Assembly (NCBI GenBank): GCA_025362975.1
Contig: JANYES010000005.1
Span: forward strand, 62,001 to 126,000
Direction of reading: 5' to 3'
From: Alphaproteobacteria bacterium
Lineage (GTDB): Bacteria; Pseudomonadota; Alphaproteobacteria; Rickettsiales; SXRF01
DNA: 64,000 nucleotides
Shown here: piece by piece, positions 33,782 to 54,359 of the stretch
How the letters are laid out: each line of letters begins with the position of its first letter
How positions within the stretch are numbered: position 1 is the stretch's first letter
The notes under the pieces: model-generated
What the model was told of the DNA's origin: nothing
Database searches by the model: none
The model's input: the letters and a program-made list of their open reading frames with translations, nothing else
Made by a program: the position numbers and the translations under genes

Positions 33782-36700
33782 CTTTTCCTCCGCAATAGCC
33801 TGCACACCAGCGCCAGCGCCCAGCATAGCGCCAGCACGTTCAGCGCGCGCCACATCGCAGGCGGGGTAAATGCATAATTGATTTCGTGCTCACCGGGCGT
33901 CACGTAGACAAACAACCTGTCGCCGGCCACGCGCGGTACGGCTTTTTTGCCGTCGACGCTCAGCGTATTCCACATGAAAGGCGTGGCGTTGGTCATGAGC
34001 CAGGCGCTCACGCCGCTGCGCAGGCGCACCGGCGGCACATCGCCAAAATCATTCGCATCCGGAGCGAAGATGATTTCCTGTCGGGAGTTGTGCAACGTTG
34101 CTATGGGCTGGGGTTCATATAAATCAGCGACACCGTAGGTGAAGGGGAAGTGATTGCGGCACAAGACATTGACGTTTAGACCGTAAAGATTCACCGCGTG
34201 GTTCAGCGGATAAGTACCCAGAATTAACAGCTTCGAACCCAGCTCCACCTGCGTAAGCGTTGTTTCTTCAAAGCTTTCAAAGAACTGCGGCGTGTTGTAA
34301 TTCCAGATCGACCAGAACGTGCCGGGCACCCTCAAAAGCTGCCGTCGTTTTTCGTCCGTGGAGAGCCCGGCATTCCCTGACGGCTTCATGATGGCCGCCG
34401 CATGCGAGATTTTTTGGGTAAAGGCAACCAGCGCGCATAGGCAGATAACCAGCCCGATAATGCGGGTGCGGCGCGTAAACCTCACAGGTTTGCCGCGTGT
34501 TTTTGCCGAGAATGCTGCTCCCAGGAGCAAACACAATGCGATCAGGTTGATGAGCGTCACCAGACGGTATGGGAACTGCATCACGTGCATGGCACGAGGC
34601 AGCAGGTGATCCCACGGATAAAGGCTGACTGAGCACCAGATATAAAAGCTGAACAATACGCACAGCAAGGCCACATAGGCGGTCAGCCGATGGCCGAGCT
34701 TTTGCTGGCGGGAGAGGGTTGTTATAAATAACAGCGCCATTGCGCCGATGAAAAAGTTGACCGGAGCATCGAGATACGGCGTGCTGATGCTTTCCAACGG
34801 GCCTTTAGTCAACCAGACACGCCGGTCGAAAAGCCACGGCGACAGCCGCGTTACGATCCAGTCGATATCGTCGGAATATAAATTGAAGAACCCGCGCGTA
34901 GTCACATCGAGCTTGCCCGACGCCGCAAGGTACGCATAGGCAAACGGCGCCAGCAGCGGCGCAAGCGCCAGAGGAATGCCCGCCATGGCGGGCAACATGC
35001 CTTTTCCGGGGGCCAGCCACCACCATAACGGGCACAGCACCGCCATGATGATGCAGCCGTTGAGCAAGGTCAGCGGATGCGTCACCGCCATGAGGGCAAA
35101 CAACAGCAGCGCCCCATCATACCAGCAGAGTTTCTGCCACGCGGTTGGTGCCATGAAACTATTCAGCAGTGCGATCACCCCCGCCGACAGCGCGACCACT
35201 GCAAAAAATTCCGGCAGGGCGCTGCGGTTATAGATATTGGTCAGCGGGTAGATCGCCAGCGTTACGGTGAGCCCAGCCATGCTTGCGAACCAACGCGGCA
35301 GGTCGAGGCGCAGGAGCAAACGCACGAGCGCTGCATGCTGCACCATATACAATCCGTATGCGCAGACGCAGATCGTCGTATACACGCCCGCCAGCGACGC
35401 CACCGTCCCAAGCAGCGGAAAGAAGCCATACCCATAAAAAACCGGAAAGGCAATGCCCACAAGATTGTAGGTGTTGAACACGCCGGGAAAGGTCCAGTGA
35501 CTACGCAAATAGGCCGCAGTGTAGCCGATTTCCCAGATATGATTGAACCAGTCGCCGTAAAAATCGTAGCCACCCCAGAGCAGCATGGTTGGTAGCAACG
35601 CGACCAACGCCGCTTCCAGCCACACTGAACGCGCTTTAGCCAGCATCATAGCATGGGAGCCCGCGTGAGCAAACCAGCTCTGAATGCGCGCGCGCGCGCG
35701 CATGGCGTAACCGAGGCACGGCAATGCGGCCGCTGCCGCTTTGCGCTCCAGCCAGATGGTATCCAGACGCAGGAATCCAACCGCCAGCAGCAATCCGGTG
35801 AGGCTAAGGATTTTGCCAAAGGTCCAACCATTTGTAATGACAATGTCGTTTTGCCCCGCGGCCAGTTTCACCACCGCCATTGCCTTATCTGCCGAGGCAT
35901 GCGCCACCGGCGCGCCATTTACTGTCAGGCTCAGCCCCGGGTAATAGAACACCGGCAGCTGGTATAGACCTTCTCTGCCGGGTGGAATGTTCACGGCCAA
36001 TGTCAGACCGCCACTTGCGGGCGAGCGAGTCGCGCTTCTGGGCAGGATGCGGAAATTACGATCATCGCTATCGGCGCTGGCACGCATGTAAACATCATCG
36101 ACGCGCACATCGCCGTCGGTTTTTTTTACGAAGCTTACCTCGTTCGCCGAAATGCCGATATCTGCCGAGAGGATGAAGTTTCCGTTACCGTCCGAGCCGC
36201 ATTCCTGCCGCGGCGGTGCTTTATCGACCAGAAGCTCCAGCGGGCATGCGCGCGAGCCAGCATGCAGGCGCATGCCGATGCGGTAGGACTGGTCGGGCAC
36301 GTTATCGTGGTGTAAGCGATAGGTGTGGCTGGTTATATCGGGAGGCAGATCGCCGAAATCCCGAAAATCCGTTCCAACATAGGCGTGGTGGTCGCTGTTG
36401 CCAATCAGGTAATTTTCATCGGCGATATGAGCCGCCGCTACGGTATCGTACTGTGCGCCATAACCGAAATTATGCCATGAACCCAGCGCGTAGCTGCCTG
36501 CCGACCACACCGCGCTCAACGCCAGAACGCCCAGCACCACGCGGTAGACGCGGAGGTGACGAGGGCGCAGGAACACCATAAAATCGGCAACCGCCACCGA
36601 GCCGAGCAGCGCAATCACCATCAGCAACCGGTTATCCCACTGCACGAAGCTGAACAGGCTGAACACCAACGGGTGAAGCGACGGATAATCGCGTGACTGT

Positions 36701-39666
36701 GTCACGACCCAGATAATCAGCAGCGCCATGAACGCCGCCGCCGTGCCAACCGTCAGGCGCCTGCGTATCACTATTGTTGCCACGCACAACGCAATAACTG
36801 GCCATGCGGCTTGCGGATACCACCAGTCGCGCATGATGAACAGGTTGGAAAGCGTGAGCCCCGAATCCCCCATACCCCAGCAGCAGGCCTGAATACGCAG
36901 CGCAAGAGGCGGCAGCAGCGCTATCGGCAACCAGTACCACGCCGCCATCAGCCCGCCTGCAAACGCGGCCAGGAGGATATAGCTGATCGATTTGGCTAGC
37001 CCCCTTGTATAGGCATAAATGCACGCCAGCAGTACGATCAAGTTATAGGAAAATACCGAATGAATCGGGTGGATGGGGATATAAAACGCCACCAGCACGC
37101 TGGTCAGCATGAGCCGAATTTTATACCGCAGCGACAACGTCTCCTGCCGCACAAGGCACATCAGCGCAAAAAGCACCCCCGGAAGCACGAAAATCGCCAC
37201 CCATTCCGTATAGAGCGCATCCTGGTACAGCACTGATATATTTTTTGACGAGAACACGCATAATAATCCTGCCACCACCGACAGGCTGCGCGTACCACCG
37301 AGCTTGTGCGCAATCGCATAAATCGAAAGTCCGGCTGCCAGGCAGCACAACGTGATATTGGCAATGACCGCCTGGTAGGGGCCAAGGCCAGCTGCTATCA
37401 GCAGCGCAGGGACCACATAGCCCGTCGCGCCGTAATACTGGAAAAGCGGCATGCGCGTTGCGTTATTCTGCAATGGCGACATCAACGGCAGCCACTGGCC
37501 TTCCAGCCATGCGCTGTAATATTCATAGGCGTAGCGGGTGTGGATCAGGATATCATTCGTGGGGATGCCTTTTTCCGACCAGAGCGGGAAGGTATACACA
37601 AGGCTTGCGAGTACGAACACCCACCCGATAGTCCAGTGCGCGGGCACATGTTTCAGTTTCGGCTCACATGCGCGCCACACGGCTTGCGCACGCCATGCGC
37701 AATGCTTCGCTTGCGCATGGCCCATACAGGCAAGCATGAGCGTAAGCAATAACCCGATCACACTGATGATTTTTGCCAGTGTCCAGGCATTGGTAATCTC
37801 AATGGAGCTTTTGCCTTTAGGCAACGCAAGCACCACCATCGCGAGATCAGAGGATTGCTGCGTGGCGCGTTGTCCATTGACAAGTATGGACATGCCCGGC
37901 CAGTAGGCGATGGGTAGCTGGTAGTTGCCTTCCCGGCCTTCAGGCAGGTTGGGGGATAAGCGGATGCCGCCGGAAATGTGCTCACGTACGGGTTTGGGCG
38001 GCAACTGGCGAAAATGTTTTTCTTCGGCGTCCGGCTCGGCGCGCACGTAAAAATCGACGAAGGTGAAAGGCCCAGACCCGGCGCGCGCAAAACGCAGCTG
38101 ATTCATGTTTACCGGCGTGATCACAATCAAGCCGTAATTGCCGTTACCGTAGTCCTCGCAGTGTTGCTGCGGTTCCTTATCGTCAAGCAGGATTTTCAGA
38201 GGGCAGCCTTTGCGGGGCGAACCATGTGTCTTGAATGTCAGAATGTAATGCAGGTCGAGGACGCCGTCCTGGACGATGGGAAAGCTACGGTCCTCAAAAC
38301 CGGGCTGGCTGAAATCCAACGACTGGAAATCTGTGCCGTGAAGGCGGTAATGCCATGTATTGCCATGAAAATACTCTTCATTACCGATGGTGCGAACAGC
38401 CTCTTCGTTATAGGCGTGGGCGGCGATGAGCTTGCCGCGTAGCGCCACCGGATATTGCAACGCGCCTGCAAAGGCGCACACCGACAGCAAGGCAAGTGCC
38501 GCACGGTAGCGGAACCGGTCCACACGGTCCAGATAGGTGAGGAAATCCGCCGCCGCTATGGCGCCCAATATGCCAAGCGGCAGCAAAAGCGGATGGTCCC
38601 AGGCAGTGAAGAAACTCACGATCTGTATATACCATGCGACGTCGCGGCACTGTGTCACCAGCAGCAGGATCGACACGAACAGGAAGGACGCCGCTGTTCC
38701 CACCGTCACCCGACGCTGGCAGGCCATGTTCAGCAACGCCGCAACGAAGAAATACCAGCCCACCTGCGGCGCATGCATACCGGCGTCCCAGCCTCCTACA
38801 GGGCGGAAGACGGGCCAGAGTGTATCGGTCAGAGTGGCGCCCGTAGAATATAAAACACCCAGCGCCGTGTGAATGCTGACGATCAGGCGGTCATGCGCGA
38901 TAGGTAGCCAGTACCATGCGGCGATCAACCCGCCCGCCAACTCGCAGAGCAGGATGGAAACGATACTGCGATAGGCCCTTTTTTGCCAGGCGTGTATGCA
39001 AGCGAGCAGCATAACCAGGTGAAAGGTGAAGAAGGAATGGGTCGGGTGGATGGGGATATACCAGCCGATTAACAGGCACGTGAGGCCAATATGAAGCCGG
39101 TAATATTTACCACCGCCATCGCTAAGGCGCAGCAGCGCCAAGAAAACCAGCGGCAGGGCGAAAATCGAAACCCATTCGGAATATAGCCCGATCGGGTAAA
39201 GCACCATCATCGAAACTGGGAAAAACAGGAATAACAACGAGCAGACCGTCGCGGACGCAAGCTTGGCGCCAAGGCGCATAAGTGCCGCCACCAGCGCGGC
39301 GCTACCTGCGAAACACCATAGCAAGGTATTGGCAATCATGGCATGGTAAGGATTCGCGCCCAGCGCGATCAGCAGCGCCGGGAACATATAGCCGTTGGCA
39401 CTATAATACTGAAATACCGGGATGCGTGCCGCGCCGTTTTCCAATGGGACCACCAGCGGCGGGAACTGGCCTTCCCGCCATGCGCGGTAATATTCGTAGG
39501 CAAAACGCGTATGCCACCAGATATCGTCGTGGACGGCGATAATCCCCGCATGCGACCACATCGGGAACGTATAGGCAAGGCTTGCAGCCAGCAGCAGAGC
39601 CGCAACACAGGCTCTGGCGGCCATGCTCGTTTTTTTTGTTTCGACTACCGATTCGCTAATGGCCAC
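33778..39666 (-). CDS. Giant membrane protein of three tandem GT-C/YfhO-like modules
   Basis: 1962 residues. Module 1 is about 20-650, module 2 about 678-1310, module 3 about 1346-1962. Modules 1 and 2 are close copies: TRFAYEYYRAWREGQ with TRYAYEYYSAWLEGQ, GREGNYQLPIAYWPGMSILV with GREGLYQLPVFYYPGLSLTV; module 3 keeps the layout with more change (YGDWFNHIWEIGYTAAYLRS). Each has an acidic first outer loop (VHDD, TND, YGDW), a bundle of ~10 helices, and a C-terminal outer beta domain. Likely transfer of lipid-linked sugars outside the cytoplasmic membrane, inferred from GT-C/YfhO resemblance. Third-last in a coupled operon, 20 nt after the carrier protein gene. Confidence 0.82.
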   Translation of the reverse strand: MAISESVVETKKTSMAARACVAALLLAASLAYTFPMWSHAGIIAVHDDIWWHTRFAYEYYRAWREGQFPPLVVPLENGAARIPVFQYYSANGYMFPALLIALGANPYHAMIANTLLWCFAGSAALVAALMRLGAKLASATVCSLLFLFFPVSMMVLYPIGLYSEWVSIFALPLVFLALLRLSDGGGKYYRLHIGLTCLLIGWYIPIHPTHSFFTFHLVMLLACIHAWQKRAYRSIVSILLCELAGGLIAAWYWLPIAHDRLIVSIHTALGVLYSTGATLTDTLWPVFRPVGGWDAGMHAPQVGWYFFVAALLNMACQRRVTVGTAASFLFVSILLLVTQCRDVAWYIQIVSFFTAWDHPLLLPLGILGAIAAADFLTYLDRVDRFRYRAALALLSVCAFAGALQYPVALRGKLIAAHAYNEEAVRTIGNEEYFHGNTWHYRLHGTDFQSLDFSQPGFEDRSFPIVQDGVLDLHYILTFKTHGSPRKGCPLKILLDDKEPQQHCEDYGNGNYGLIVITPVNMNQLRFARAGSGPFTFVDFYVRAEPDAEEKHFRQLPPKPVREHISGGIRLSPNLPEGREGNYQLPIAYWPGMSILVNGQRATQQSSDLAMVVLALPKGKSSIEITNAWTLAKIISVIGLLLTLMLACMGHAQAKHCAWRAQAVWRACEPKLKHVPAHWTIGWVFVLASLVYTFPLWSEKGIPTNDILIHTRYAYEYYSAWLEGQWLPLMSPLQNNATRMPLFQYYGATGYVVPALLIAAGLGPYQAVIANITLCCLAAGLSIYAIAHKLGGTRSLSVVAGLLCVFSSKNISVLYQDALYTEWVAIFVLPGVLFALMCLVRQETLSLRYKIRLMLTSVLVAFYIPIHPIHSVFSYNLIVLLACIYAYTRGLAKSISYILLAAFAGGLMAAWYWLPIALLPPLALRIQACCWGMGDSGLTLSNLFIMRDWWYPQAAWPVIALCVATIVIRRRLTVGTAAAFMALLIIWVVTQSRDYPSLHPLVFSLFSFVQWDNRLLMVIALLGSVAVADFMVFLRPRHLRVYRVVLGVLALSAVWSAGSYALGSWHNFGYGAQYDTVAAAHIADENYLIGNSDHHAYVGTDFRDFGDLPPDITSHTYRLHHDNVPDQSYRIGMRLHAGSRACPLELLVDKAPPRQECGSDGNGNFILSADIGISANEVSFVKKTDGDVRVDDVYMRASADSDDRNFRILPRSATRSPASGGLTLAVNIPPGREGLYQLPVFYYPGLSLTVNGAPVAHASADKAMAVVKLAAGQNDIVITNGWTFGKILSLTGLLLAVGFLRLDTIWLERKAAAAALPCLGYAMRARARIQSWFAHAGSHAMMLAKARSVWLEAALVALLPTMLLWGGYDFYGDWFNHIWEIGYTAAYLRSHWTFPGVFNTYNLVGIAFPVFYGYGFFPLLGTVASLAGVYTTICVCAYGLYMVQHAALVRLLLRLDLPRWFASMAGLTVTLAIYPLTNIYNRSALPEFFAVVALSAGVIALLNSFMAPTAWQKLCWYDGALLLFALMAVTHPLTLLNGCIIMAVLCPLWWWLAPGKGMLPAMAGIPLALAPLLAPFAYAYLAASGKLDVTTRGFFNLYSDDIDWIVTRLSPWLFDRRVWLTKGPLESISTPYLDAPVNFFIGAMALLFITTLSRQQKLGHRLTAYVALLCVLFSFYIWCSVSLYPWDHLLPRAMHVMQFPYRLVTLINLIALCLLLGAAFSAKTRGKPVRFTRRTRIIGLVICLCALVAFTQKISHAAAIMKPSGNAGLSTDEKRRQLLRVPGTFWSIWNYNTPQFFESFEETTLTQVELGSKLLILGTYPLNHAVNLYGLNVNVLCRNHFPFTYGVADLYEPQPIATLHNSRQEIIFAPDANDFGDVPPVRLRSGVSAWLMTNATPFMWNTLSVDGKKAVPRVAGDRLFVYVTPGEHEINYAFTPPAMWRALNVLALCWALALVCRLLRRKR

Positions 39667-39686: not shown

Positions 39687-39944
39687 CTATCCCTTGGCCG
39701 CGAGTTTTTTCTGCACCAGATCAATCGCATCACCTATATCTTTAAGCCCCTCGATCTCGGCGATCTGGAACTTCACGCCATAACGGCTTTCGATGGCGAT
39801 GATGATGTTGATATGGTTAAATGAATCCCATTCTTCGATATCGTGTGCGGTGGTGGCGCGCGTCAGCACCATCGTTTCATCGTCGAAAATCTCGCGGAAA
39901 ATGGCTGTAAGCCCTTGCAGCAGCGTCTCCTCATCCATCGCCAT
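39687..39944 (-). CDS. Acyl carrier protein of the glycan operon
   Basis: 85 residues, the size of a free-standing ACP. The phosphopantetheine serine is Ser41 in EEWDSFNHINI, where helix II begins. It is not the housekeeping AcpP: the sequence differs and the neighbours are FkbH and surface-glycan genes. FkbH-type enzymes load glyceryl groups onto such carriers. The start overlaps the FkbH stop by 14 nt; a second Met at 39938 is equally possible. Confidence 0.92.
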   Translation of the reverse strand: MAMDEETLLQGLTAIFREIFDDETMVLTRATTAHDIEEWDSFNHINIIIAIESRYGVKFQIAEIEGLKDIGDAIDLVQKKLAAKG

Positions 39945-41754
39945 TTTCCTTTTTCACTGTAATAAACGTGGGACGCTGCGCAAACCCGGTCAGCGGAAGT
40001 ATCCATCGGGCATCATTAGCATCTTTGCCCTCACAAGGCAAGAATCCGAGCTTTGCGTAATGGTCGCGCACCATGCCATTTTTAGCCGTGGCGCGGTATT
40101 GCCCGATAAGGTTCACCGCCCCCAGACGCTGCGCCTCGCTGACGGCGAGGTTGAGTGTGGCTTCCTCAACATGGCGGCCGAGCACACGGCAACTCATCAG
40201 CCAAGTGTCCAGCAGCGCGTCGCCATTGGCATCGAGCTTGCCTATCACGATGCCGATTATGCCATTATCGCCGAACTGGTCGGTCAGGCGCAGCTGCAAC
40301 GTAAAGGCGCGCGGATCGAGCATGAGCGCCTGAACATCGCTGTCGGTGTAGCGCTGCGTGGTCAGGTTGAACTGGTTGGTCTTATTGATAAGCTGCACCA
40401 CCCGCTGCTGCCCGACGGGCGAAAATGCCCGCCAAAGCAACTCCATATTCAGCCCGCGCAGGTACTCTTCCATGTTAGTCGTCGACGATTTCAGCGCCTC
40501 GCGCTGGACATTGGCCTGATATTGCTGCGTGCGGTCGAAATCTTCCGAGGTGACGTTGAGCGCTTCAAAATAGCCATGCGCGGCGATTGTCTGCGGGTAG
40601 AGTGACGGGTCGTCGGGCAATTCAGGCACCGCCACCATCGGTAATTCCTTACGCATAAGGCTGCGCTCGAAAGGGTTGTCGTCGACAAAAACCAGCGAGT
40701 CGATGCCGATATTCAGCCTTGCCGCAATCTCGCGCAGATTGCTCGGCTTATCTTGCCAGTTGGCAACGAAACAGGCGATGTCGGAACGTTTTAGTAGCAT
40801 GTCGGGATGTTTTTCAAACGGCATCAGCGCGTTCGCCTCGTCGTTTTTTGAACAGACTGCAAGGATCACCCCGCGCGATGCCAGGTCCTTAGCATAGCGC
40901 TGCAACGCGAGATGCGCCTCGCCCGTCGCATTACCCTGCCCGAGCTTGATACCTTCCAGCCCGTCGTCGCCGATTACCCCGCCCCAAAGGGTATTATCGA
41001 GATCGAGCACGAGGCATTTGGAGGAACGCCCGCGCTTCGCCGCGATCAGCCGCGCGGCTAGCTCGCCGTAGAGAAGCGCGGCGGCGGGCGAGATTTCCTG
41101 CTTGGCCATGTGCCACAGTTTCGGGTCGTGCCAGGCATGCATACCATCCATCATTATCCGGTCGTCAAGCGCCAGAAGATCGACGCCTTCTTCCGCCGCC
41201 AGCGGGCGTAAACGCTCATTGAGGGCGAAAGTCAGGCGGCGTAGCGAACCAGGCAGGTGATGTTCATTCCCGCCAAGCAGCGCATGCGCCGTCGGCATAA
41301 ACGTTTGCTGGATTATCTGCGCGCCGAAGCTATCGCGCGCAAGTTTCCATAGCTGCGCAAGGCGCGCGCAAGCGGCGTCGAGCGTCGCCTGCGCTGTGGT
41401 CGCGTCCGCCGAGGCGGGCGGGTTGCCGAGGATGTGGTTCGCTTCAAACGCGAACAGCACCGTATTGGGTTTAAACTGATGCAGCGGCGAATCCGTATCG
41501 TGCAATTCCTTCCTGTACTGGCCATAGCCGCAGGTGTAAGCAGTCATCCATAAATGGCGGGCAAGCGCCGCCACGCGCAGTCCCGGCAGCAAATGGCCGG
41601 TGTTCGCCGAGCCAAGGACGGCGAGGCGCACGGGCTTGGTCTCAAGCCCTTCGGGCGGGGCGGCGAATTCGCGTTTAAGGATGCGATCCAGTTTAAGGGT
41701 TTCGGTCAATCCCTTCGCATCCCGCGCTGCGGCAACGAGCGTGTCCCACGGCAT
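39931..41754 (-). CDS. FkbH-family HAD protein (putative glyceryl-ACP synthase)
   Basis: 607 residues. Residues ~40-235 are the SGNH-like N-terminal part common in FkbH proteins (VLGSANTGHLLPGL); 246-400 is the HAD domain with DLDNTLWGG at 251-259 and the later conserved VFVDDNPFERS; 430-600 is a GNAT-like C-terminal part. Characterised FkbH proteins take 1,3-bisphosphoglycerate, dephosphorylate it and load D-glyceryl onto an ACP as a thioester. The ACP gene directly downstream and the methyltransferase upstream match the known FkbH-ACP-methyltransferase sets, but no FkbI/FkbD-type oxidases are present. Start TAATG overlaps the methyltransferase stop. Confidence 0.9.
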   Translation of the reverse strand: MPWDTLVAAARDAKGLTETLKLDRILKREFAAPPEGLETKPVRLAVLGSANTGHLLPGLRVAALARHLWMTAYTCGYGQYRKELHDTDSPLHQFKPNTVLFAFEANHILGNPPASADATTAQATLDAACARLAQLWKLARDSFGAQIIQQTFMPTAHALLGGNEHHLPGSLRRLTFALNERLRPLAAEEGVDLLALDDRIMMDGMHAWHDPKLWHMAKQEISPAAALLYGELAARLIAAKRGRSSKCLVLDLDNTLWGGVIGDDGLEGIKLGQGNATGEAHLALQRYAKDLASRGVILAVCSKNDEANALMPFEKHPDMLLKRSDIACFVANWQDKPSNLREIAARLNIGIDSLVFVDDNPFERSLMRKELPMVAVPELPDDPSLYPQTIAAHGYFEALNVTSEDFDRTQQYQANVQREALKSSTTNMEEYLRGLNMELLWRAFSPVGQQRVVQLINKTNQFNLTTQRYTDSDVQALMLDPRAFTLQLRLTDQFGDNGIIGIVIGKLDANGDALLDTWLMSCRVLGRHVEEATLNLAVSEAQRLGAVNLIGQYRATAKNGMVRDHYAKLGFLPCEGKDANDARWILPLTGFAQRPTFITVKKENGDG

Positions 41755-42665
41755 TACGGCTTCCTCAGCAAAACACCATAGGAAATATCGAGCTTATGCC
41801 TGATATGGTATTCCATTGATTTTGCTTCCAGGGACGGAATGACGGTTTCGCGATCGATCGCAAAGCCTGAATTGAGGATAAGGTCACGTATTTCATCGAC
41901 CGTATTGAACAGGTACACGTGGTCCGGCGCGGGGCAGTTGGCGCAGGTCGTCAGATAAAGCGCGCCGCCTGGCGCAAGATGGTTTTTCAGCACTTTAAGC
42001 ACCGAGGCCGGGTCATCGATATGTTCGAGCACCTCGCCCATGATGATAAAATCATACGGCGTACCAGGTGCGTAATCGGCGATATCGCTTTGGATGAAGC
42101 GCACCTGGCGCATGCGCCGGGGATTGCTGACGGCCAGCAGTTTCTGCGAAAGCTCAATCGACGCGCTGCTGATATCGACCACATCAATGGTGGCGCCGTC
42201 GCTGACACTTTGTAAAAGGTGGTTCAAAAACAATCCCGCCCCGGAGCCGATTTCCAGAAACCGGCCGGACGCAGGCTGCGCATCGGCACAGCTTTTAAAA
42301 AACTGCAGCAGCCGATAATGCGAAAACCACAAAAAGTCCGAAACGGCTAGCCCAAGCATGTAAGACAGCATCTTGTCGGGCTGGCTGTAAATCTCGTTCA
42401 GGGCTGCATGTTGCGAGTCCATCGAATACGTGCCAGAGCGGATAAAATCCATCCGGCACATCATATACTGCCGGATCATGCCGGTATAGCTGGCGGCGAG
42501 CCCTTCGAGGCCGCCGATATCAGGCTGGTTCCACAACGTTTCGTACTGGTGCAGGAACCGGGCAAAATCCTCACGCGCCTGCGGCGTATGCGCAAAAAAA
42601 AGCGTCAGGCTTTTTTCCTGCAAGGGGGCTTGCCTGTAAACATGCGACAGAAATTCATCGATCAT
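41754..42665 (-). CDS. Class I SAM-dependent methyltransferase
   Basis: 303 residues. A helical N-terminal region of ~130 residues precedes a Rossmann methyltransferase: motif I FLEIGSGAGLFLNHLL (136-151), acidic DVVDISSASIELS, and YDFIIMGEVLEHIDDP (motif IV). The tail has LAPGGALYLTTCANC. In operon context it could methylate the glyceryl group made by FkbH or the glycan end. Substrate is not fixed by sequence. AGGAGA lies 7 nt before the ATG. Confidence 0.88.
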   Translation of the reverse strand: MIDEFLSHVYRQAPLQEKSLTLFFAHTPQAREDFARFLHQYETLWNQPDIGGLEGLAASYTGMIRQYMMCRMDFIRSGTYSMDSQHAALNEIYSQPDKMLSYMLGLAVSDFLWFSHYRLLQFFKSCADAQPASGRFLEIGSGAGLFLNHLLQSVSDGATIDVVDISSASIELSQKLLAVSNPRRMRQVRFIQSDIADYAPGTPYDFIIMGEVLEHIDDPASVLKVLKNHLAPGGALYLTTCANCPAPDHVYLFNTVDEIRDLILNSGFAIDRETVIPSLEAKSMEYHIRHKLDISYGVLLRKP

Positions 42666-42691
42666 GGCGTTTTCTCCTGTTGTTTCAGTTT

Positions 42692-43723
42692 TTACTGCAC
42701 CGGATTTCTTGTTTCGCCAGCCCGCGCCGGGGAAGACCAGCCGCGCACATTCTGCTCCTGCAACCGCTTAACGATCATTTCGGAAAAATATCGCCCGCCC
42801 CTTGCTTTAAGATGCCGGCTGTCGCCGAAATACCGCCACGATAAAGCGGTCATTTGAGGCGTCAGCAAATGAACGTTAGGGTATTGTTGCACAAGCTCCT
42901 GCAGGTAGGCCTGATAGGCTTTTATCACATCGGGTTTGACCTTGTCGATTGTGATATCGCTAAAGGGGGTAATTACCAGGTAAATATCGATCTTTTTTTC
43001 GGCAAATAGACCAATCATCTTGCGTAAATAGTAGTCGTTGAGTGTTTGCGGCACGAATTGATCATAGGTCACCAGCTGGTCCAATTCCTGCGACCCGCCG
43101 CTGGGGATGTATTCCATTTCGCCGCGTTTAACATAAGCTTTCTTTAAAGCGGGGCGGCTGTTGTGACCATTGATAAAAACGTCTTTTGTCTCTTTCAAAT
43201 AATAAGGCGGGAATTTGTTTGCGTACGCCCATTCGAGCAGCATAATATCCACATCGTAAGGGTAGGTTTTCGGATAGTATTCAAGTCGGGCGTCGCGCAT
43301 ATAAGCGCGGAACTCGTCAAAATCGCTCCAGCTGTAATTGCCGTAATGCTGGATGTACATTTCTAAAAAAGGCCGCGCCATCATCATCGTGCGCGGGTTG
43401 TATGACAAAATAACGGATTGCGGCAGGTTCGGGCAGGCCATCGCTTTTTTTGCCAGGAAATATGAAGTCACTGGCGTTCCGCTTCCCTGAGCCAGATTCA
43501 CCACCGAGCTGCCAAGTATGGATGGACGCAGGGCATACGCAGCCGACGAGTCGCCGAAGATGCTGAGTGTTCCAAGATTGCACTGGCGCACTAGTTCGGA
43601 TTTTGATAGCGTCATTGCCTCGTAATCTTCCAGCCAGATCGGATCGGTCTGCAGCAACCAGCACCACATCGCGCTGAACAGCAGGATAAAGGAGCCAAAA
43701 AATCCCTTGGCAAAACGCCCCAT
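42692..43723 (-). CDS. SGNH/DltD-like membrane-anchored protein (second copy)
   Basis: 343 residues; one N-terminal membrane segment (residues ~7-24) then a periplasmic SGNH-type domain. GDSS at 57-60 gives the nucleophile Ser59, and GDSRHL near 310 gives the Asp-x-x-His pair. Two cysteines at equal places in the paralogue (QCNLG and ACPNLP) may form a disulfide. Such proteins act with MBOAT proteins in moving acyl groups to surface polymers (DltD, AlgJ/X). The start is MGRFAKGFFG at 43723, 4 nt after the previous stop; the C-terminal tail SSPARAGETRNPVQ looks like added repeat-type sequence. Confidence 0.82.
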   Translation of the reverse strand: MGRFAKGFFGSFILLFSAMWCWLLQTDPIWLEDYEAMTLSKSELVRQCNLGTLSIFGDSSAAYALRPSILGSSVVNLAQGSGTPVTSYFLAKKAMACPNLPQSVILSYNPRTMMMARPFLEMYIQHYGNYSWSDFDEFRAYMRDARLEYYPKTYPYDVDIMLLEWAYANKFPPYYLKETKDVFINGHNSRPALKKAYVKRGEMEYIPSGGSQELDQLVTYDQFVPQTLNDYYLRKMIGLFAEKKIDIYLVITPFSDITIDKVKPDVIKAYQAYLQELVQQYPNVHLLTPQMTALSWRYFGDSRHLKARGGRYFSEMIVKRLQEQNVRGWSSPARAGETRNPVQ

Positions 43724-43727
43724 ATGA

Positions 43728-44117
43728 CTAGCGCTGCTCAAATAAACGCTCCGCCTGCCAGTCGGAAATATACGGATAACCCTCGACCTTCGCATCGTTG
43801 ATGCATAACGCGGAAACGCCTGGACCTGTCAATCGCCCGATAAAATTCTGGTGGTCGGAATCGTGCATCTGGTTTTCAGGTGTGGTCGGTAAATCGGTAA
43901 GCAATAGATGGAAATTAGGATATTTATCTGCATAGCGCTGCAAATGTGCCTTGTACTCCATTACGAATTGCGGGTCCAGCATCGCTTTCGATTCCTTGCT
44001 AATCGGCATCAGAACAAAATAAGCCAGCGGATGTTGCAGTAAATACACCCACAACGCGCTGTACGCCCCGGCGAACGCCAGTAACAAGCCATAACAGAAG
44101 CGGCGCGCGGATGTCAT
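43728..44117 (-). CDS. Internally deleted SGNH paralogue (129 aa)
   Basis: Residues 1-30 form a membrane anchor like those of the flanking SGNH proteins; from residue ~33 the sequence jumps to the C-terminal third: LMPISKESKAMLDPQF, RYADKYPNFHLLL, DSDHQNF, DAKVEGYPY. The neighbour at 44114 has LMPLNQASKDALSPTL, DRYPGFHLLL, DPDHQNF, EAKVEGYPY. About 230-250 residues, including the nucleophile GDS, are missing while the Asp-x-x-His part stays. The frame is intact and coupled to both neighbours (ATGA overlap, then 4 nt), so it may be a shortened but expressed protein, or a decaying duplicate. Confidence 0.8.
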   Translation of the reverse strand: MTSARRFCYGLLLAFAGAYSALWVYLLQHPLAYFVLMPISKESKAMLDPQFVMEYKAHLQRYADKYPNFHLLLTDLPTTPENQMHDSDHQNFIGRLTGPGVSALCINDAKVEGYPYISDWQAERLFEQR

Positions 44118-45184
44118 TTCTTTATGTTTACCGTGTCTTTTCTGCCTGCCTGCGGGTCGGCGGCATAAGGGTATCCTTCGACTTTAGCCTCGTTGAGAAT
44201 GGTGCGGAATTGTTTGGACCAGACAACGGCCCCCTGGAAATTCTGGTGGTCGGGGTCAAGGAAATACTGGTCCGGCTGCACAGGGTAATCAGGCAGCAGT
44301 AAATGAAACCCCGGATAGCGGTCGGTATATTGTTTCAGGTAAGCTTTGTAATCGGCCACCAGTGTCGGCGACAGCGCATCTTTGGAGGCCTGGTTCAGGG
44401 GCATCATAGCGAAGTATACCGAGATATGATGCGACGTCAGAAGCGCAAGCGTACGGTCGAAATAATCGTCGAAATAAGGCTCTTGTTTTGAATGCGTGAA
44501 GGCTGTCACCGGCGCGAGGCCCTGGATATTAGCGGTGGCGTATCCATTAAGAAACAGCGGGAACGCGCCATTCGTCGTGTACATCTCATCGTAAAGCGGC
44601 TGGTTTATTGCTTCTAGCCCGAAGCGTTTGCCTTCATACAGATTGTGGAAATAATAAGCCGGGAAGCGCGTGGCATAGCCGAATTCCCTCAGCCTCAGCT
44701 CAAGGTCGCCGGGCGTTTCCTGCCCGAGGAAATTATAGCCGAACCGTCGCACGTTATAGCGGATTTCTTCCATATCGGAGAAATCGTAACGCCCGTAACG
44801 CATTATGCTTTCCAGCATTGGGTAGCGGTAATCCCAATGACCGAAAAACGCGTTGTTGCCATAGGAAATGATAATCGCTTTTGGCGGGTGGGGGCAATTT
44901 ACCAGCTGGCGGGCAAAATGGTAGCTTTGCACCTGCCCGCCCGACGGCAGCGCGAGGTTGGTGACGCCGGGATCAATATAAGTGGGGTCGAAACCAAGCG
45001 CAGCGCGCGAATCCCCAAGGATAACAAGCCTGCCAGTATGGCATTCATGTGCCATCGAGGCCTTGGCGTAGAACACAACGTCCTCGCCGTGGAACAGGCT
45101 TAGCGGATGAGCATTGATATATACCCAGCATCCTCCTATCATGGCGACTATCGTTCCTAAGAACGTTGCGTTGAAACGTTTCAT
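44114..45184 (-). CDS. SGNH/DltD-like membrane-anchored protein (first copy)
   Basis: 356 residues: N-terminal membrane segment (~8-24), then a periplasmic SGNH domain with LGDSR (nucleophile Ser59), the block II-like LALPSGG and the C-terminal DPDHQNF (Asp-x-x-His). Cysteines in HECHTG and VNCPHP align with those of the copy at 42692. It starts 5 nt after the MBOAT stop, the order seen for many MBOAT-SGNH pairs that acylate cell-surface polymers. The acyl group is not told by sequence; the carrier protein and FkbH in the operon suggest glyceryl. Confidence 0.82.
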   Translation of the reverse strand: MKRFNATFLGTIVAMIGGCWVYINAHPLSLFHGEDVVFYAKASMAHECHTGRLVILGDSRAALGFDPTYIDPGVTNLALPSGGQVQSYHFARQLVNCPHPPKAIIISYGNNAFFGHWDYRYPMLESIMRYGRYDFSDMEEIRYNVRRFGYNFLGQETPGDLELRLREFGYATRFPAYYFHNLYEGKRFGLEAINQPLYDEMYTTNGAFPLFLNGYATANIQGLAPVTAFTHSKQEPYFDDYFDRTLALLTSHHISVYFAMMPLNQASKDALSPTLVADYKAYLKQYTDRYPGFHLLLPDYPVQPDQYFLDPDHQNFQGAVVWSKQFRTILNEAKVEGYPYAADPQAGRKDTVNIKK

Positions 45185-45189
45185 ACTGG

Positions 45190-46815
45190 TCAGAATTTAA
45201 AATAAACAAACGGCTGAGGCTCGTAAAAGACCTGCAGATATGCGTAGACCGCGACCAGGCCGAACACGATCCCAAGCAGCATCCCCGGCTTGCGCCTGCA
45301 CCATGCTGGCGCCGGATTGCGCGGCAGCGTCAGTGACGGCTCGCAGGTCTCAAAGACCTGCAGCACGTTGGGCAGCGTCAGCACCAGCGCCCAGGTGACG
45401 ATGAGTGTCAGCATATTCGGAATACCAAGCTTCCAGAAATGGAGCACTTCGTCCAGGTTATAAAACCAAAAGCCCATGTAGCGTTCCACTACGCCCCACT
45501 GCGAATTAAAATTCATATCGGAGGGGCTGGCAGCGGTAAGCCCCGACATGCTGCCCAGCATTGCCAGCGCGTTTTGCGTGTTAGAGCTACGGAAGAATAC
45601 ATAGCTTATCAGCACGCAGCCGATCGTCAGCACGGATTTAACCACTGCAATTGACGCGTGACCATACCACTCACGGGTGCGGCCCTTAACCTTGGGGAAG
45701 AAATTGCGCCACAGGTGGTTCACGGTCAGGAACACGCCATGCAGCAGGCCGAACCACAGGAAGTTAATACCCGCCCCATGCCAGATACCGGCGAGCGTCA
45801 TTGTGGTGATGGTTGGGAACGCAATCATCCTGGTAAATCCGCCCGGCGTCAACGACGCTTGGCGCGGCGTTATGCCGCGTTTTGCCAAATAGCGCGCTAC
45901 ATGAAGCGCAATCGGCGCATAAATATATAGCGCCAGATATCGTGTCAGCGTCATATGCCAGCGCTGCCAGAATTCAATCATGCTCGTGGCTTTGTACGGC
46001 GAGTCGAAATTCGCTGGGAAGCGCATGTTGAACATCAGCGCCAGCCCGATAGCCATGTCTGTATAACCTGAAAAATCGAAATAAATCTGCAGCGCGAAAC
46101 TGAGTATCGCCGTCCAGGCCTGCCCGACTGATAGTTGCGGCACATGGCTGAACAACACATTCGTGGTAATCATGAATTCATCGGCGAGCACGACTTTTTT
46201 AAACAAGCCGATAAAGAAAATCGCCAGTCCCACCACGACATTATCACCGTTGAAACGGTACGTGGCGGGATTCAGGAACTGCGGCAGCATCTCGCGGTGA
46301 TGCAGGATCGGCCCGGCGATCAAATGCGGAAAGAAGGTGACGAAGAGCGCATAATCGAGGAAGCTGTCTTTTTTTGCCAGCCCCGCTTTCGCATCGATCA
46401 AATAGCCGATTTGAGTGAAGGTAAAAAACGAAATGCCCAGAGGCAGCGCAATGCTTTGCGGATCAAGCGACAGATGCACGCCTATGCTGTCCAGGGTCGG
46501 CAGCAGCGCACCCAGATATTTATAGTAACAAAGCACTAGCAAATTAGCGCTGATTCCGCCCGCCAGCAGCCAATTCTGGAGTTTTCCCCGCCCGGTTAAC
46601 AGCGACAACGCCCTGCCCATCACGTGATTGCAGACGATCGAAATGATCAGCAACGACACGTAGGTCGAATCCCACCAGCCGTAAAACAGCAGCGACACCA
46701 CCACCAGCCACGCCACCGCCAGCCTTCTTCCGATCATCGAAAAAATGCGGAATCCCAGCCAGGACATGGGCAGGAACGCCATGATAAAGACCAGCGAATT
46801 AAACAGCATAAGCAA
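45190..46815 (-). CDS. MBOAT family O-acyltransferase
   Basis: 541 residues with about 11-12 membrane segments; AlgI/DltB/PatA-like. Seen: YFDFSGYTDMAIGLALMF (247-262), FWQRWHMTLTRYL (282-294) and the catalytic-His block LAGIWHGAGINFLWFGLLHG (341-360, His346). These enzymes pass an acyl group from a cytosolic thioester across the membrane to a surface acceptor. It is the first gene of a minus-strand operon of nine genes ending at 31049. Promoter expected in the 114-bp gap to the divergent gene at 46930. Confidence 0.93.
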   Translation of the reverse strand: MLMLFNSLVFIMAFLPMSWLGFRIFSMIGRRLAVAWLVVVSLLFYGWWDSTYVSLLIISIVCNHVMGRALSLLTGRGKLQNWLLAGGISANLLVLCYYKYLGALLPTLDSIGVHLSLDPQSIALPLGISFFTFTQIGYLIDAKAGLAKKDSFLDYALFVTFFPHLIAGPILHHREMLPQFLNPATYRFNGDNVVVGLAIFFIGLFKKVVLADEFMITTNVLFSHVPQLSVGQAWTAILSFALQIYFDFSGYTDMAIGLALMFNMRFPANFDSPYKATSMIEFWQRWHMTLTRYLALYIYAPIALHVARYLAKRGITPRQASLTPGGFTRMIAFPTITTMTLAGIWHGAGINFLWFGLLHGVFLTVNHLWRNFFPKVKGRTREWYGHASIAVVKSVLTIGCVLISYVFFRSSNTQNALAMLGSMSGLTAASPSDMNFNSQWGVVERYMGFWFYNLDEVLHFWKLGIPNMLTLIVTWALVLTLPNVLQVFETCEPSLTLPRNPAPAWCRRKPGMLLGIVFGLVAVYAYLQVFYEPQPFVYFKF

Positions 46816-46929: not shown

Positions 46930-49272
46930 ATGCTGCGAAAATATCCCGGACGTCTTTTCCTACTTTGCTTACTGCTGGCGGCGCTGGCGTGGTGGGGAAC
47001 GATTCCTTATTTGTGCTGCACACAGATCAGCTACCCGCGCGACGGCGACACATCGTCTTACGTCAAGCTGCCTTTCTTCGAAACCAGTTCGGACAACACA
47101 GCGCAGTTCAACGTCAGCGCATCTTTGTACTACTGGCCGTTCCAGTCTGGCGAGCTGTGGATAAGGCCTGACGACTGCGTCGATCAAATCCGCATCAACG
47201 GCCATCTTGTCGACGACAAGCTTATCAAATCCCAGTCTTACTGTTCCGACGCCAACCTCAACACCCGCGTTCATCTCGACATCACGCCCTACCTTCGCCC
47301 CGGGCAGAACGATCTTGGAATACAGTTCAGCGATAAGGGCGGCGGATACGGGCTTGACGCGGGCATCAGCCGTAGCGCCGGGGTCATCACCGTTACTACC
47401 GCTTTGTTAGCGTTCGCCTTGTTTCTCCTCTACCGCCTGAGCACAGTCAGCGGCCTATTGCTTAAAACCGCCGCCCTGCTGGGCAAGCGCAAACCCGCCG
47501 CCGCCTGCGTCGGGTTTGCGATCATTTCGTTGACCAGCTTGTATCTCTGGCCGATTCTTTCGACTGGCCTATGGTATTTTTCACATGCGCAGGATAGCTA
47601 CCTCTATGAAATGGAACAGTTCAAGGACAGCATTTCGCATGGCATCCTCTATCCACGCTGGCTGCCGCGCCTCGAAGGCGGCTACGGCTACACCACGTTT
47701 CTGTTCGTAGCACCCGGCCTTTTTTATCTGACCTTGCCATTTTCTTACCTGTTCTCCGATGTGACGCACGCTTTCTATGTCTCCATATTCCTGATTACTG
47801 CGCTGGGCCTTACCGGCGCCTATGTGCTATCGCGCCTGTGGTGCGGAAGGCTTGCCAGCGTGCTTTGCCTGACACTGTTTTTGATGACGCATTACGTCTC
47901 CATCAATCTTTTTCCGCGCGGCGACGTGACCGAATTCGCTGGCATGATGCTTGGGCCGTGGCTGCTGTTCTTCTTCATCCGCCTGACCACTGGCATCGAA
48001 ACCCGAGCCGTTAAAACTGTCGATATCATTGGCCTTACGGCGACAATTTTTGCGCTTATCGTCATGCATCCGCTGGTTTTCCTTTACAGCGCCATCCCCG
48101 GTGCGTTCCTACTCGTGGGCAAGTTTATCGAAAGCCGCCATGAGCGCAGCATTCTTATCCTGCCAGTGCTTTGTTTGGCCGTCGCTTTCATCCTCGGCAG
48201 CCCCTATTGGTATACCGCCATGCAAATGAAAGCTTATATCAATCAGGGCGGCGTGTTCATTTCCGATACCGCTAAAGACCTGCCGGATTTATTCAACGGT
48301 TACTTTGATCCCGGCGCGCTGCAACTTGTACTCGCCATGCTTGGCTGGCTGACCGTTCGCCGCAGCCCGTTCATGCTCTCGGCCTGTCTTGCGCATTTCG
48401 CGTTGCTGTTCATGCTCACCAGCTATTCCGATGATATCTGGCACCTTGAAACGCCACTGAAATATTCGCAGTTTCCATGGCGCATCAACTCGGTACTGGC
48501 GGTCGTGCAACTGCTGGGCATGATTCAGTTCATGCGTTTCGCCTGCGCCCGCATGGACATCCACATCCATAACGCTTCCAGACGTTTAGTATTGTTGGCT
48601 GTAGCTCCGTCGCTGGTTGTTTTTTTTACGCTCTACAGCGTCGATATCAAGCACATGCTCGTCGAGCGCAAAGAACCTTACCAGATCTGGGGCACAATGG
48701 ATTACCCTAAGCACAAGGACGAATGGGAGCACCACGAATTCATCTATGCGGGCGTTTACAAAGAATTCTTCCCGCTCACCGCTAACTATGAAGGCCTGCC
48801 AAACCGCCTGCTCGCGCCCGTGCCAATGGTGCAGGACGCCAGCCAGGCTGGCATCCTCGTCATGAATGGTGACTCCACCAACCACCGGATCCATTTTACC
48901 GCCAATGTGCCAGCAGGCCCGCACATGCCGTCAGTGGTCATCAACCAGATGGATTTTCCCGGTTGGAAAGTCACTGTCAACGCCCGCACTGCATTGTATA
49001 CGGCCGATGCCAATTTCCACCTTGACCAGCCCAGCTGGTATCATGACGAGCATGGCCGCATTACCGTAACCTTTCCCGAACCCGGCATCTACGAAGTCAA
49101 TGCATGGTATGACGGCCCGCCGAAGTGGCAGTGGCGCAACATTGCTATGATCGGCTGCTTAGCGCTGCTCGTACGCGCACTGCGCCGCCAGACCGCAATC
49201 GCCAATGAACCCGCCGCGCCGCTGCGTCGTCCTAACATCAAGACGGGCAGGAGCGAAATTGCTAATAAGTAG
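46930..49272 (+). CDS. GT-C/YfhO-like membrane protein with an N-terminal jelly-roll domain
   Basis: 780 residues. A membrane anchor at 9-26 is followed by a periplasmic beta domain at ~35-150, with DQIRINGHLVDDK and LDITPYLRPGQNDLGIQ, a pattern of the sugar-binding jelly roll of GH2-type proteins. From ~155 to ~590 lies a GT-C-like membrane bundle with the acidic outer loop AQDSYLYEMEQFKDS, and from ~600 a C-terminal outer beta domain (MDFPGWKVTVNARTA, PEPGIYEVNAWY). It resembles single modules of the giant proteins at 31-40 kb. Divergently placed from the MBOAT operon. Confidence 0.8.
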   Translation: MLRKYPGRLFLLCLLLAALAWWGTIPYLCCTQISYPRDGDTSSYVKLPFFETSSDNTAQFNVSASLYYWPFQSGELWIRPDDCVDQIRINGHLVDDKLIKSQSYCSDANLNTRVHLDITPYLRPGQNDLGIQFSDKGGGYGLDAGISRSAGVITVTTALLAFALFLLYRLSTVSGLLLKTAALLGKRKPAAACVGFAIISLTSLYLWPILSTGLWYFSHAQDSYLYEMEQFKDSISHGILYPRWLPRLEGGYGYTTFLFVAPGLFYLTLPFSYLFSDVTHAFYVSIFLITALGLTGAYVLSRLWCGRLASVLCLTLFLMTHYVSINLFPRGDVTEFAGMMLGPWLLFFFIRLTTGIETRAVKTVDIIGLTATIFALIVMHPLVFLYSAIPGAFLLVGKFIESRHERSILILPVLCLAVAFILGSPYWYTAMQMKAYINQGGVFISDTAKDLPDLFNGYFDPGALQLVLAMLGWLTVRRSPFMLSACLAHFALLFMLTSYSDDIWHLETPLKYSQFPWRINSVLAVVQLLGMIQFMRFACARMDIHIHNASRRLVLLAVAPSLVVFFTLYSVDIKHMLVERKEPYQIWGTMDYPKHKDEWEHHEFIYAGVYKEFFPLTANYEGLPNRLLAPVPMVQDASQAGILVMNGDSTNHRIHFTANVPAGPHMPSVVINQMDFPGWKVTVNARTALYTADANFHLDQPSWYHDEHGRITVTFPEPGIYEVNAWYDGPPKWQWRNIAMIGCLALLVRALRRQTAIANEPAAPLRRPNIKTGRSEIANK

Positions 49273-53730: not shown

Positions 53731-54359
53731 AAGCGTTCTTTGACTTCGTAACCCGATAATTGCTTCTTTTTCAGTAAATCTTGAAATACCTCTGCCAGAT
53801 CGAAAGACGTTCCGGGTGCGAAACCATCAAACGCGGCCTTGGTAAACACTCCGAGTCCGTAATCAATATATTGCATTTGCTGGGTCAAGTTTTTCTTATC
53901 GTAATTGAGCAATTCCCCGCGCTCGAATTGCACGTTGCTGGTGTCCCACTGGCCTTCGTTGTGAAACACCGTCATCAACCCCTGCCCTTTGAATGCGCGC
54001 TGGACGGCAGAAAAATCGGTGGGCAGGTAGCTATCGCCGTACATCACAAAAAACGGCTCTGTGAGCAGCGGCAGCGCTTTTTGAATCGCCCCGCCGGTGC
54101 CTATCAGCACTGCGCCATCGGGGCTGTAGCGTACGTTGACGCCGAAACGTTTGCCGTCGCCGACGAAGTTTTCAATGGCATCGCTTAGATAGCCGGTGCA
54201 GATGACGATATCGGTGATGGCTTGCGTTGCAAGCAGCCGCAGCTGATGGGCGATGAAGGGCTCGCCAGCTACGTCCAGCATGGATTTCGGCGTATCATCG
54301 GTCAGCGCCCCGAGACGCGTAGCCCGCCCGCCAGCCAGCAACGCGAGCTTCGCGCTCAT
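53676..54359 (-). CDS. hddC: Sugar-1-phosphate nucleotidyltransferase, HddC-like
   Basis: 227 residues. N-terminal LLAGGRATRLGALTDDTPKSML is the nucleotidyltransferase signature; YGDSYLPTDF carries the metal-binding Asp. HddC transfers GMP to D-glycero-alpha-D-manno-heptose 1-phosphate. The assignment to heptose rests on the coupled kinase gene (ATGA overlap) and nearby gmhA/gmhB. The C-terminal block FYEIGSHQGLAETAALL matches the family to its end, so the 55-bp overlap with the convergent gene is real coding for this side. Confidence 0.85.
   Translation of the reverse strand: MSAKLALLAGGRATRLGALTDDTPKSMLDVAGEPFIAHQLRLLATQAITDIVICTGYLSDAIENFVGDGKRFGVNVRYSPDGAVLIGTGGAIQKALPLLTEPFFVMYGDSYLPTDFSAVQRAFKGQGLMTVFHNEGQWDTSNVQFERGELLNYDKKNLTQQMQYIDYGLGVFTKAAFDGFAPGTSFDLAEVFQDLLKKKQLSGYEVKERFYEIGSHQGLAETAALLA

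Follow-up and report, generated by a model that had tools for sequence, protein, structure and literature searches.

A coupled operon of seven genes on the minus strand of the analyzed DNA (positions 39687-46815) probably encodes a surface acylation system that resembles the Dlt system and depends on an acyl carrier protein (ACP). An FkbH protein would here replace DltA as the loading enzyme, and the acyl group would be glyceryl or O-methylglyceryl. The operon lies in a window of 64,000 nucleotides, by which we mean the whole stretch of DNA that was analyzed. The evidence consists of the gene content, the conserved catalytic residues, the fold matches of two of the proteins to DltB and DltD, the recurrence of the gene set in several phyla and the clustering of the MBOAT proteins that are linked to FkbH.

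Organization of the operon

All seven genes named in a preliminary description of this DNA were found, in the following order:

45190..46815, minus strand: MBOAT acyltransferase, predicted DltB-like (Pfam MBOAT and Foldseek)
44114..45184, minus strand: SGNH1, membrane-anchored, predicted DltD-like acyl transferase/esterase (motifs and Foldseek)
43728..44117, minus strand: short SGNH paralogue of 129 amino acids (likeness to SGNH1)
42692..43723 (preferred; listed ORF start 43795), minus strand: SGNH2, second full-length SGNH protein (likeness to SGNH1 and motifs)
41754..42665, minus strand: class I SAM methyltransferase (MT) of an FkbH-associated family (Pfam Methyltransf_23)
39931..41754, minus strand: FkbH, predicted glyceryl transferase/phosphatase for ACP loading (TIGR01686)
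39687..39944, minus strand: dedicated ACP (Ser41 and PDB entry 2lml)

From MBOAT to ACP, the intergenic distances are +5, -4, +4, +26, -1 and -14 bases, where the value of +4 assumes that SGNH2 starts at the ATG at 43723. Since the genes overlap or are at most 26 bases apart, they may fairly be called one coupled operon, as in the earlier account. The listed frame of SGNH2 (42692-43795) has a 68-base overlap, which the internal ATG at 43723 removes. MBOAT is listed with a TTG start, but may instead begin at the in-frame ATG at 46809. No match to an AMP-binding family, which would indicate a DltA-type loader, was obtained for the seven operon proteins with Pfam or NCBIfam.

Recurrence of the gene set in other genomes

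The gene set was observed in several bacterial phyla. An MBOAT gene was located within 8 kb of 25 of 110 FkbH matches, as compared to 0.67 expected from random placement, with the 8 kb limit set after the loci had been inspected. FkbH was matched at E 0.001 in 109 genomes, of which the sample comprised 76 (87 with fetched loci, less 11), and the 110 matches include two fragments below the family cut-off (G170 and G056). At least three of the 11 genomes outside this count (G550, G488 and G497) also have an MBOAT near FkbH. A ketosynthase match was found in none of the 72 loci in which FkbH and MBOAT are linked, using two query proteins at E 1e-10, a search that divergent ketosynthases would escape. 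The preliminary description had suggested a search for such co-occurrence without polyketide synthases, and by these two queries it is observed. FkbH and ACP are not confined elsewhere to the company of unrelated genes, as the association recurs far beyond chance and in several phyla.

In 36 of the 72 linked loci, the MBOAT gene directly adjoins or overlaps a same-strand gene for FkbH, ACP, VOC or MT. These loci are not all independent, with L008/L228 and L201/L218 being on the same contigs and L103, L107 and L108 representing three strains of Sinorhizobium meliloti. A scan that started from the MT, based on the best 80 of 276 named-genome loci as ranked by likeness to the MT of locus L061 rather than that of the window, identified FkbH in 69, ACP in 70, VOC in 45, MBOAT in 44 and all five in 33 of the 80 loci. 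The MT family is thus mostly near FkbH in this set, whereas an MT was present in only 13 of the 31 linked loci found via FkbH. Among the 55 genomes in the search of relatives, only 4 have FkbH, one of them being the genome of the window. Of the 110 sampled FkbH matches, 85 are not near an MBOAT, and 36 of the best 80 of 276 MT loci show none either, and the same acyl-ACP therefore probably feeds other fates as well.

Named cassettes are carried by plasmids (Tistrella mobilis pTM1, a plasmid of Rhodobacteraceae SC52 and a plasmid of Sinorhizobium meliloti), and by Flavobacterium sedimenticola, Mucilaginibacter sp. OK098, Marmoricola, Nocardioides and Terrabacter. The S. meliloti protein SMb20651 was considered as the cassette ACP and rejected; the available text of PMC7232532 describes its co-transcription with the gene of a predicted acyl-CoA ligase.

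A VOC metalloprotein with an H-E-H-E metal site, whose nearest match is methylmalonyl-CoA epimerase, recurs with the gene set. It is absent from the window operon, which is why the preliminary description had missed it, and the rest of the genome gives only a 31% match. A Glyoxalase_4 protein is present in a locus from the same genus (L007).

Predicted loading enzyme, carrier and methyltransferase

The FkbH protein scored 312 bits against TIGR01686, above the curated cut-off of 146.65, and it has a relative in the PDB, 3slr (E 8e-60). The HAD motif DxDxT is present (D251, D253 and T255), as is C522. The motif residues are invariant in all 70 linked FkbH proteins with letters at these positions, of 72 aligned, and the cysteine is conserved in all 72 linked loci. 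The ACP contains the phosphopantetheine serine (Ser41), which all 69 linked ACPs examined share, and its closest PDB entry is 2lml, "Putative acyl carrier protein" (E 1e-24). The MT matched Pfam Methyltransf_23 with 74 bits.

MBOAT and SGNH proteins

The MBOAT protein scored 71 bits against Pfam MBOAT (cut-off 27) and 152 bits against the NCBIfam DltB equivalog, which is below the cut-off of 375. The top PDB matches of its predicted model (pLDDT 79) in Foldseek were the DltB structures 6bug and 8jem (E 3e-12), and the residues W343-H344-G345 were invariant across 24 sequences. On a tree built in 'quick' mode, the MBOAT proteins linked to FkbH clustered, requiring 7 label changes as compared to 25.4 after shuffling. 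The unlinked background is not a random sample, since it consists mostly of the highest Pfam scorers, and five unlinked rows were left out, namely L231, two of L233 and L247, for which the fetched stretch was without FkbH, and L276, which had an over-long frame. The exceptions to the clustering were the linked L046, L258 and one of L204, which fall among or beside unlinked rows, and the unlinked L010 and L273, which sit among linked rows.

None of the SGNH proteins in the window matched a Pfam or NCBIfam model, Pfam DltD included, and the SGNH assignment is therefore based on motifs and fold matches. SGNH1 contains the GDS and DxxH blocks, and G57, S59, N76, P262 and H313 were invariant in 18 sequences. 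The model of SGNH1 (pLDDT 75) retrieved five DltD rows and four rows of 3bma, a D-alanyl-lipoteichoic acid synthetase, at Foldseek ranks 1-9, with low TM-scores against these DltD-type structures (0.37-0.45, rmsd 10-13 A). When ranked by Z in VIA-align, plain SGNH hydrolases were placed above DltD, though with shorter alignments. SGNH2, read from the ATG at 43723, aligns with SGNH1 from residue 1 (28% identity over 341 amino acids) and contains the motifs GDSS and GDSRH. The strict SGNH motif adjoins 44 of 77 linked MBOATs, not all.

The two SGNH proteins and the short paralogue of the preliminary description are all present, but the short one is probably not an enzyme, since the G-D-S nucleophile block is absent. 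It has kept a membrane anchor, together with the D-x-x-H block near the C-terminus, and is 47% identical to the C-terminus of SGNH1 over 97 amino acids, with the anchor matched weakly. It is probably either the remnant of a deletion or a subunit without activity.

Comparison with known systems

The cassette resembles the Dlt system in its small carrier protein and coupled operon, and in that its MBOAT is best matched by DltB and its SGNH protein by DltD-type entries in Foldseek searches against solved structures. It differs in its loader, where FkbH is a HAD-type protein with predicted 1,3-bisphosphoglycerate chemistry and no ATP adenylation, unlike DltA, and in its ACP, which is of the AcpP/2lml type. 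It also contains two SGNH proteins, and the MT and, in relatives, the VOC protein probably tailor the acyl group. The earlier reading of a dlt-like system with FkbH as the loader is supported in part, by partners whose best fold matches are DltB and DltD-type proteins, by an FkbH and an ACP where the Dlt system has DltA and DltC, by the recurrence without a ketosynthase match in the 72 linked loci, and by the MT family being mostly near FkbH.

The AlgI/AlgJ (alginate) and PatA/PatB (peptidoglycan) systems likewise pair an MBOAT with an SGNH protein outside the cytoplasmic membrane, but are not known to have FkbH or a dedicated ACP; they are thought to O-acetylate from acetyl-CoA. The Cj1295 locus of Campylobacter jejuni NCTC 11168 presumably encodes an ACP, a methyltransferase and a HAD-IIIC protein, and we know of no MBOAT/SGNH route in the flagellin modification of this species. 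The likeness is that a surface sugar of a bacterium bears methylated glycerate, described as di-O-methylglyceric acid on the flagellin sugars of C. jejuni in the available text of PMC3068675. The acyl group differs in being put on pseudaminic acid. No C. jejuni record was found among the best 80 of 276 named-genome MT loci.

FkbH proteins also load carriers in polyketide and peptide pathways, OzmB and RkD being further examples beside suomilide and varlaxin. The cassette shares with these pathways the FkbH motif DxDNT, a carrier protein and an O-methyltransferase partner, but the acyl group is predicted to reach MBOAT and SGNH, in loci with no ketosynthase match. For suomilide-type peptides, the FkbH and O-methyltransferase domains are proposed to yield a carrier-bound methylated glycerate (available text of PMC10143770 and PMC13122637).

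Alternative explanations

It is rather unlikely that the two parts of the operon have separate functions, with the acyl-ACP made by FkbH, ACP and MT passing to a cytoplasmic acyltransferase or a small molecule, and with MBOAT and SGNH O-acetylating a glycan from acetyl-CoA. Such a division would fit the MT loci, among the best 80 of 276, in which MBOAT is out of range, and locus L191, in which MT, a MaoC-SDR protein, FkbH and ACP adjoin a hexapeptide transferase. The proximity of FkbH and MBOAT far above expectation, the abutting or overlapping genes in half of the linked loci and the separation of linked from most unlinked MBOATs on the tree argue against it. FkbH is best known from polyketide and peptide clusters, in which it would give a starter or extender unit, and ketosynthases do occur at some FkbH loci (L104 and L106; 5 of 113 unlinked loci). 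However, a Pfam scan of 19 proteins of the window gave no match to a PKS or NRPS family, and the linked loci had no match to the two ketosynthase queries, which disfavors a polyketide setting and makes this origin very improbable.

The architecture could also be as proposed and the acyl group a different one, with FkbH loading D-lactyl or another phosphorylated hydroxy acid to give a lactate-like surface ester. Some FkbH domains load lactate in polyketide pathways, so the acyl group may differ from glyceryl, and we are not aware of sequence features that would reveal the specificity of an FkbH protein. The frequent presence of the MT near FkbH (69 of the best 80 of 276 loci) argues for methylated glycerate instead, as proposed for suomilide-type pathways in the available text of PMC10143770 and PMC13122637, and also fits the di-O-methylglyceric acid on C. 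jejuni flagellin sugars (available text of PMC3068675). We consider a different acyl group to be a minor possibility.

Proposed route and implications

In the preferred, Dlt-like reading, FkbH would take a three-carbon acyl group, most likely D-glyceryl from 1,3-bisphosphoglycerate, strip the phosphate and load the dedicated ACP with the acyl group at its phosphopantetheine. The MT would probably O-methylate the acyl group while it is carrier-bound and, in many relatives, the VOC protein would also act on it, possibly as a C2 epimerase. MBOAT would then move the acyl group from ACP across the membrane. Both anchored SGNH proteins would attach it to hydroxyls of a surface glycan. We infer the identity of the acyl group, the site of methylation, the direct use of acyl-ACP by MBOAT and the nature of the acceptor. 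The latter would not be teichoic acid, since the host is probably an alphaproteobacterium, and may be a glycan made by the neighboring membrane and sugar genes.

More tentatively, the cassette could represent a hitherto unrecognized multi-phylum decoration system that draws 1,3-bisphosphoglycerate from glycolysis to make glyceryl and O-methylglyceryl esters of surface glycans, with the VOC protein, where present, inverting C2. Such an inversion would account for L-glycerate esters like that of gellan, which carries L-glycerate at C-2 of glucose (available text of PMC9104527). The same available text names no gene for the gellan glyceryl transferase, and the link to gellan is a lead only.

No description of the FkbH-ACP-MBOAT-SGNH gene set was found in the open-access literature, where FkbH together with MBOAT retrieved only cyanobacterial peptide work (available text of PMC10143770 and PMC13122637), and where nothing was found for HAD-IIIC with MBOAT or for FkbH with O-antigen. 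If the proposed route is true, it would extend bacterial surface acylation by a new type of loader and a new type of acyl group, link the decoration of glycans directly to the flux through glycolysis and provide a function for HAD-IIIC/FkbH proteins outside polyketide clusters. The origin of known glycerate esters, such as those of gellan and the methylated glycerate on surface sugars, could then be tested by deleting single genes in carriers available in culture, among them Flavobacterium sedimenticola, Mucilaginibacter, Nocardioides and Sinorhizobium meliloti.

The operon in the window

The seven genes that the preliminary description had placed in one coupled operon are indeed present, tightly packed and all on the minus strand. 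Their order is MBOAT, SGNH1, a 129-aa SGNH remnant, SGNH2, a class I SAM methyltransferase (MT), FkbH and ACP, with intergenic gaps of +5, -4, +4, +26, -1 and -14 bases, where the +4 gap assumes that SGNH2 starts at the ATG at 43723.

Features of the window
39687-46815, minus strand: seven-gene operon
43728-44117, minus strand: SGNH remnant
33778-39666, minus strand: very large flanking frame, 1962-aa membrane protein
31049-33853, minus strand: very large flanking frame
46930-49272, plus strand: very large flanking frame
53676-55336, minus strand: nucleotidyltransferase and GHMP kinase pair

The frame of the 1962-aa protein begins 20 bases downstream of ACP, and this gene may be part of the operon's transcript. 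PTPS_related matched the protein in two stretches, and it reads like several fused membrane units. No Pfam family matched the other two flanking frames. The SGNH remnant is in frame and consists of the anchor fused to the C-terminal DxxH block, the nucleophile-bearing middle being gone; it could have decayed following a duplication, serve as an inactive subunit or be an artefact of assembly.

FkbH scored 312 bits against TIGR01686 (cut-off 146.65), with one PDB match, 3slr (protein BF1531), and the nearest solved relative of ACP was 2lml. No Pfam or NCBIfam model matched the SGNH proteins of the window. The model of SGNH1 (17 relatives, mean pLDDT 75) retrieved five DltD rows and four rows of 3bma at Foldseek ranks 1-9 (best E 1.4e-4), with low TM-scores of 0.37-0.45 and rmsd of 10-13 A. 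The title of 3bma is D-alanyl-lipoteichoic acid synthetase, which we take to be DltD. In VIA-align, TesA-type SGNH hydrolases reached Z 14.7 (163 residues aligned) and DltD 6pfx reached Z 12.6 (263 residues aligned). Thus the modeled fold of SGNH1 is of the SGNH type, and among the proteins listed DltD spans the largest part of the model. For MBOAT, DltB was nearest to the model (pLDDT 79, E 3e-12), and the best solved relatives of the alignment profile were likewise DltB.

Co-location of FkbH and MBOAT

FkbH was found in 4 of the 55 relatives-search genomes, one of them the window's own, in 52 of 397 genomes of the phylum sample (48 above cut-off) and in 57 of 249 genomes of one family in the window's class (56 above cut-off). 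The three other FkbH genomes of the relatives search, represented by loci L007 (same genus), L008 and L009 (same order), all had MBOAT near FkbH. A subset of 76 of these FkbH-bearing genomes contained 110 FkbH and 101 MBOAT matches; 25 of the 110 FkbH matches were within 8 kb of an MBOAT, as compared to 0.67 expected by random placement, and 85 had no nearby MBOAT. Ketosynthase queries matched none of 72 linked loci (FkbH with nearby MBOAT) and 5 of 113 unlinked loci. The preliminary description had proposed, as a check, a search for FkbH, ACP, MBOAT and SGNH genes occurring together without polyketide synthases; as far as ketosynthase matches go, the linked loci agree with it. MBOAT adjoins or overlaps FkbH, ACP, VOC (an epimerase-like metalloprotein) or MT in 36 of the 72 linked loci. 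Among loci reached via FkbH, MT was present in 13/31 linked versus 14/85 unlinked loci, VOC in 8/31 versus 12/85 and ACP in 29/31 versus 52/85.

MT belongs to a family that can be delimited (alignment A1), and a scan of named genomes yielded 276 relatives. The best 80 of these, nearest to the MT of locus L061 and not a random sample, included the already examined contigs of L061 and L008. The stretches fetched for these best 80 of 276 contained FkbH in 69, ACP in 70, VOC in 45, MBOAT in 44 and all five in 33; 36 had no MBOAT, and MT was alone in 7, several of which lie on short contigs or at the end of a contig. The 80 loci came from Pseudomonadota, Bacteroidota, Actinomycetota, Cyanobacteria, Planctomycetota, Omnitrophota and Nitrospirota. 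Those with MBOAT were from Pseudomonadota, Bacteroidota, Actinomycetota and Planctomycetota, with a single Nitrospirota locus and two whose titles name no phylum, and no MBOAT was seen in the cyanobacterial and Omnitrophota loci of this set.

Cassettes in named genomes
Tistrella mobilis pTM1: MBOAT, 340-aa neighbour, ACP, MT, FkbH
Rhodobacteraceae SC52: ACP, FkbH, MBOAT, 358-aa SGNH-type protein, VOC
Sinorhizobium meliloti plasmids, three strains: MBOAT, 409-aa neighbour, ACP, FkbH
Flavobacterium sedimenticola, in gene order: FkbH, MT, ACP, VOC, MBOAT, SGNH
Two Nocardioides, Marmoricola, Terrabacter and an Intrasporangiaceae genome: MBOAT frame overlaps FkbH

In S. meliloti, a VOC frame was found in RCAM1750 (L103) and 1021 pSymB (L107), and not in AK76 (L108). 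The cassette FkbH is split into two frames in 1021 (L107 11206-13268) and is one frame in the other two strains.

Catalytic residues

In linked loci, the ACP serine was conserved in 69/69, FkbH D251, D253 and T255 in 70/70, and D358, D359 and C522 in 72/72. VOC, whose gene is absent from its place in the window operon, retained H9 in 41/41 and E56, H82 and E133 in 42/42 each (numbering of the L007 VOC). Together, these residues resemble the complete metal-binding site of methylmalonyl-CoA epimerase. The nearest NCBIfam models of the L207 VOC were methylmalonyl-CoA epimerase and glyoxalase I, both below cut-off, and the nearest solved relatives of the L228 VOC were glyoxalase-type proteins.

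MBOAT phylogeny

A tree was built from 75 linked and 29 unlinked MBOATs (104 in all); the linkage label requires 7 changes on it versus 25.4 in shuffles, and 0 of 500 shuffles were as low. This clustering is partly due to related rows; unlinked MBOATs from some of the same families were placed elsewhere. The window MBOAT falls inside a 17-row all-linked group with S. meliloti, SC52 and others (support 90, not starred).

The window's own genome (C1) has a second MBOAT with an SGNH-profile partner (L010 8699-11105), and no FkbH or ACP was found within that 19-kb stretch. This MBOAT groups with the FkbH-linked MBOATs of L053, L096 and L244, and may draw on the same acyl-ACP.

Predicted pathway and relation to Dlt

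The loader, carrier, tailoring methyltransferase and DltB-like and DltD-like proteins stay together in many genomes. As expected from its family, FkbH would form a glyceryl-carrier using 1,3-bisphosphoglycerate. ACP-borne glyceryl or O-methylglyceryl would then pass via MBOAT and the SGNH protein to a glycan. FkbH glyceryl loading and O-methylation are proposed for suomilide-type peptides (PMC10143770 and PMC13122637).

Several neighbours are candidates for making the acceptor, namely a GT2, an epimerase-type gene, a nucleotidyltransferase, a GHMP kinase and large membrane proteins. The nucleotidyltransferase and GHMP kinase pair, perhaps serving an NDP-heptose, is a candidate contributor to the acceptor glycan. 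Published work describes methylated glycerate on a surface sugar of Campylobacter jejuni flagellin (PMC3068675) and L-glycerate in gellan (PMC9104527); both parallel the glycerate decoration of the predicted product.

Another set, MT, a 394-aa MaoC-SDR fusion, FkbH and ACP, occurs in a Helicobacteraceae, a Geobacteraceae and a Nitrospirae MAG (L191, L188 and L187; the fusion was called by Pfam for L191 and L188 and by likeness for L187). The L191 set adjoins a hexapeptide transferase, which suggests that the same acyl-ACP has a second use, in the cytoplasm.

The window MBOAT is below DltB's own cut-off. The window system differs from Dlt in its loader, and Dlt membership fails there. The cassette is real and recurrent, it is undescribed in the open-access literature searched, and its chemistry is predicted; the reading that it works like Dlt stands.
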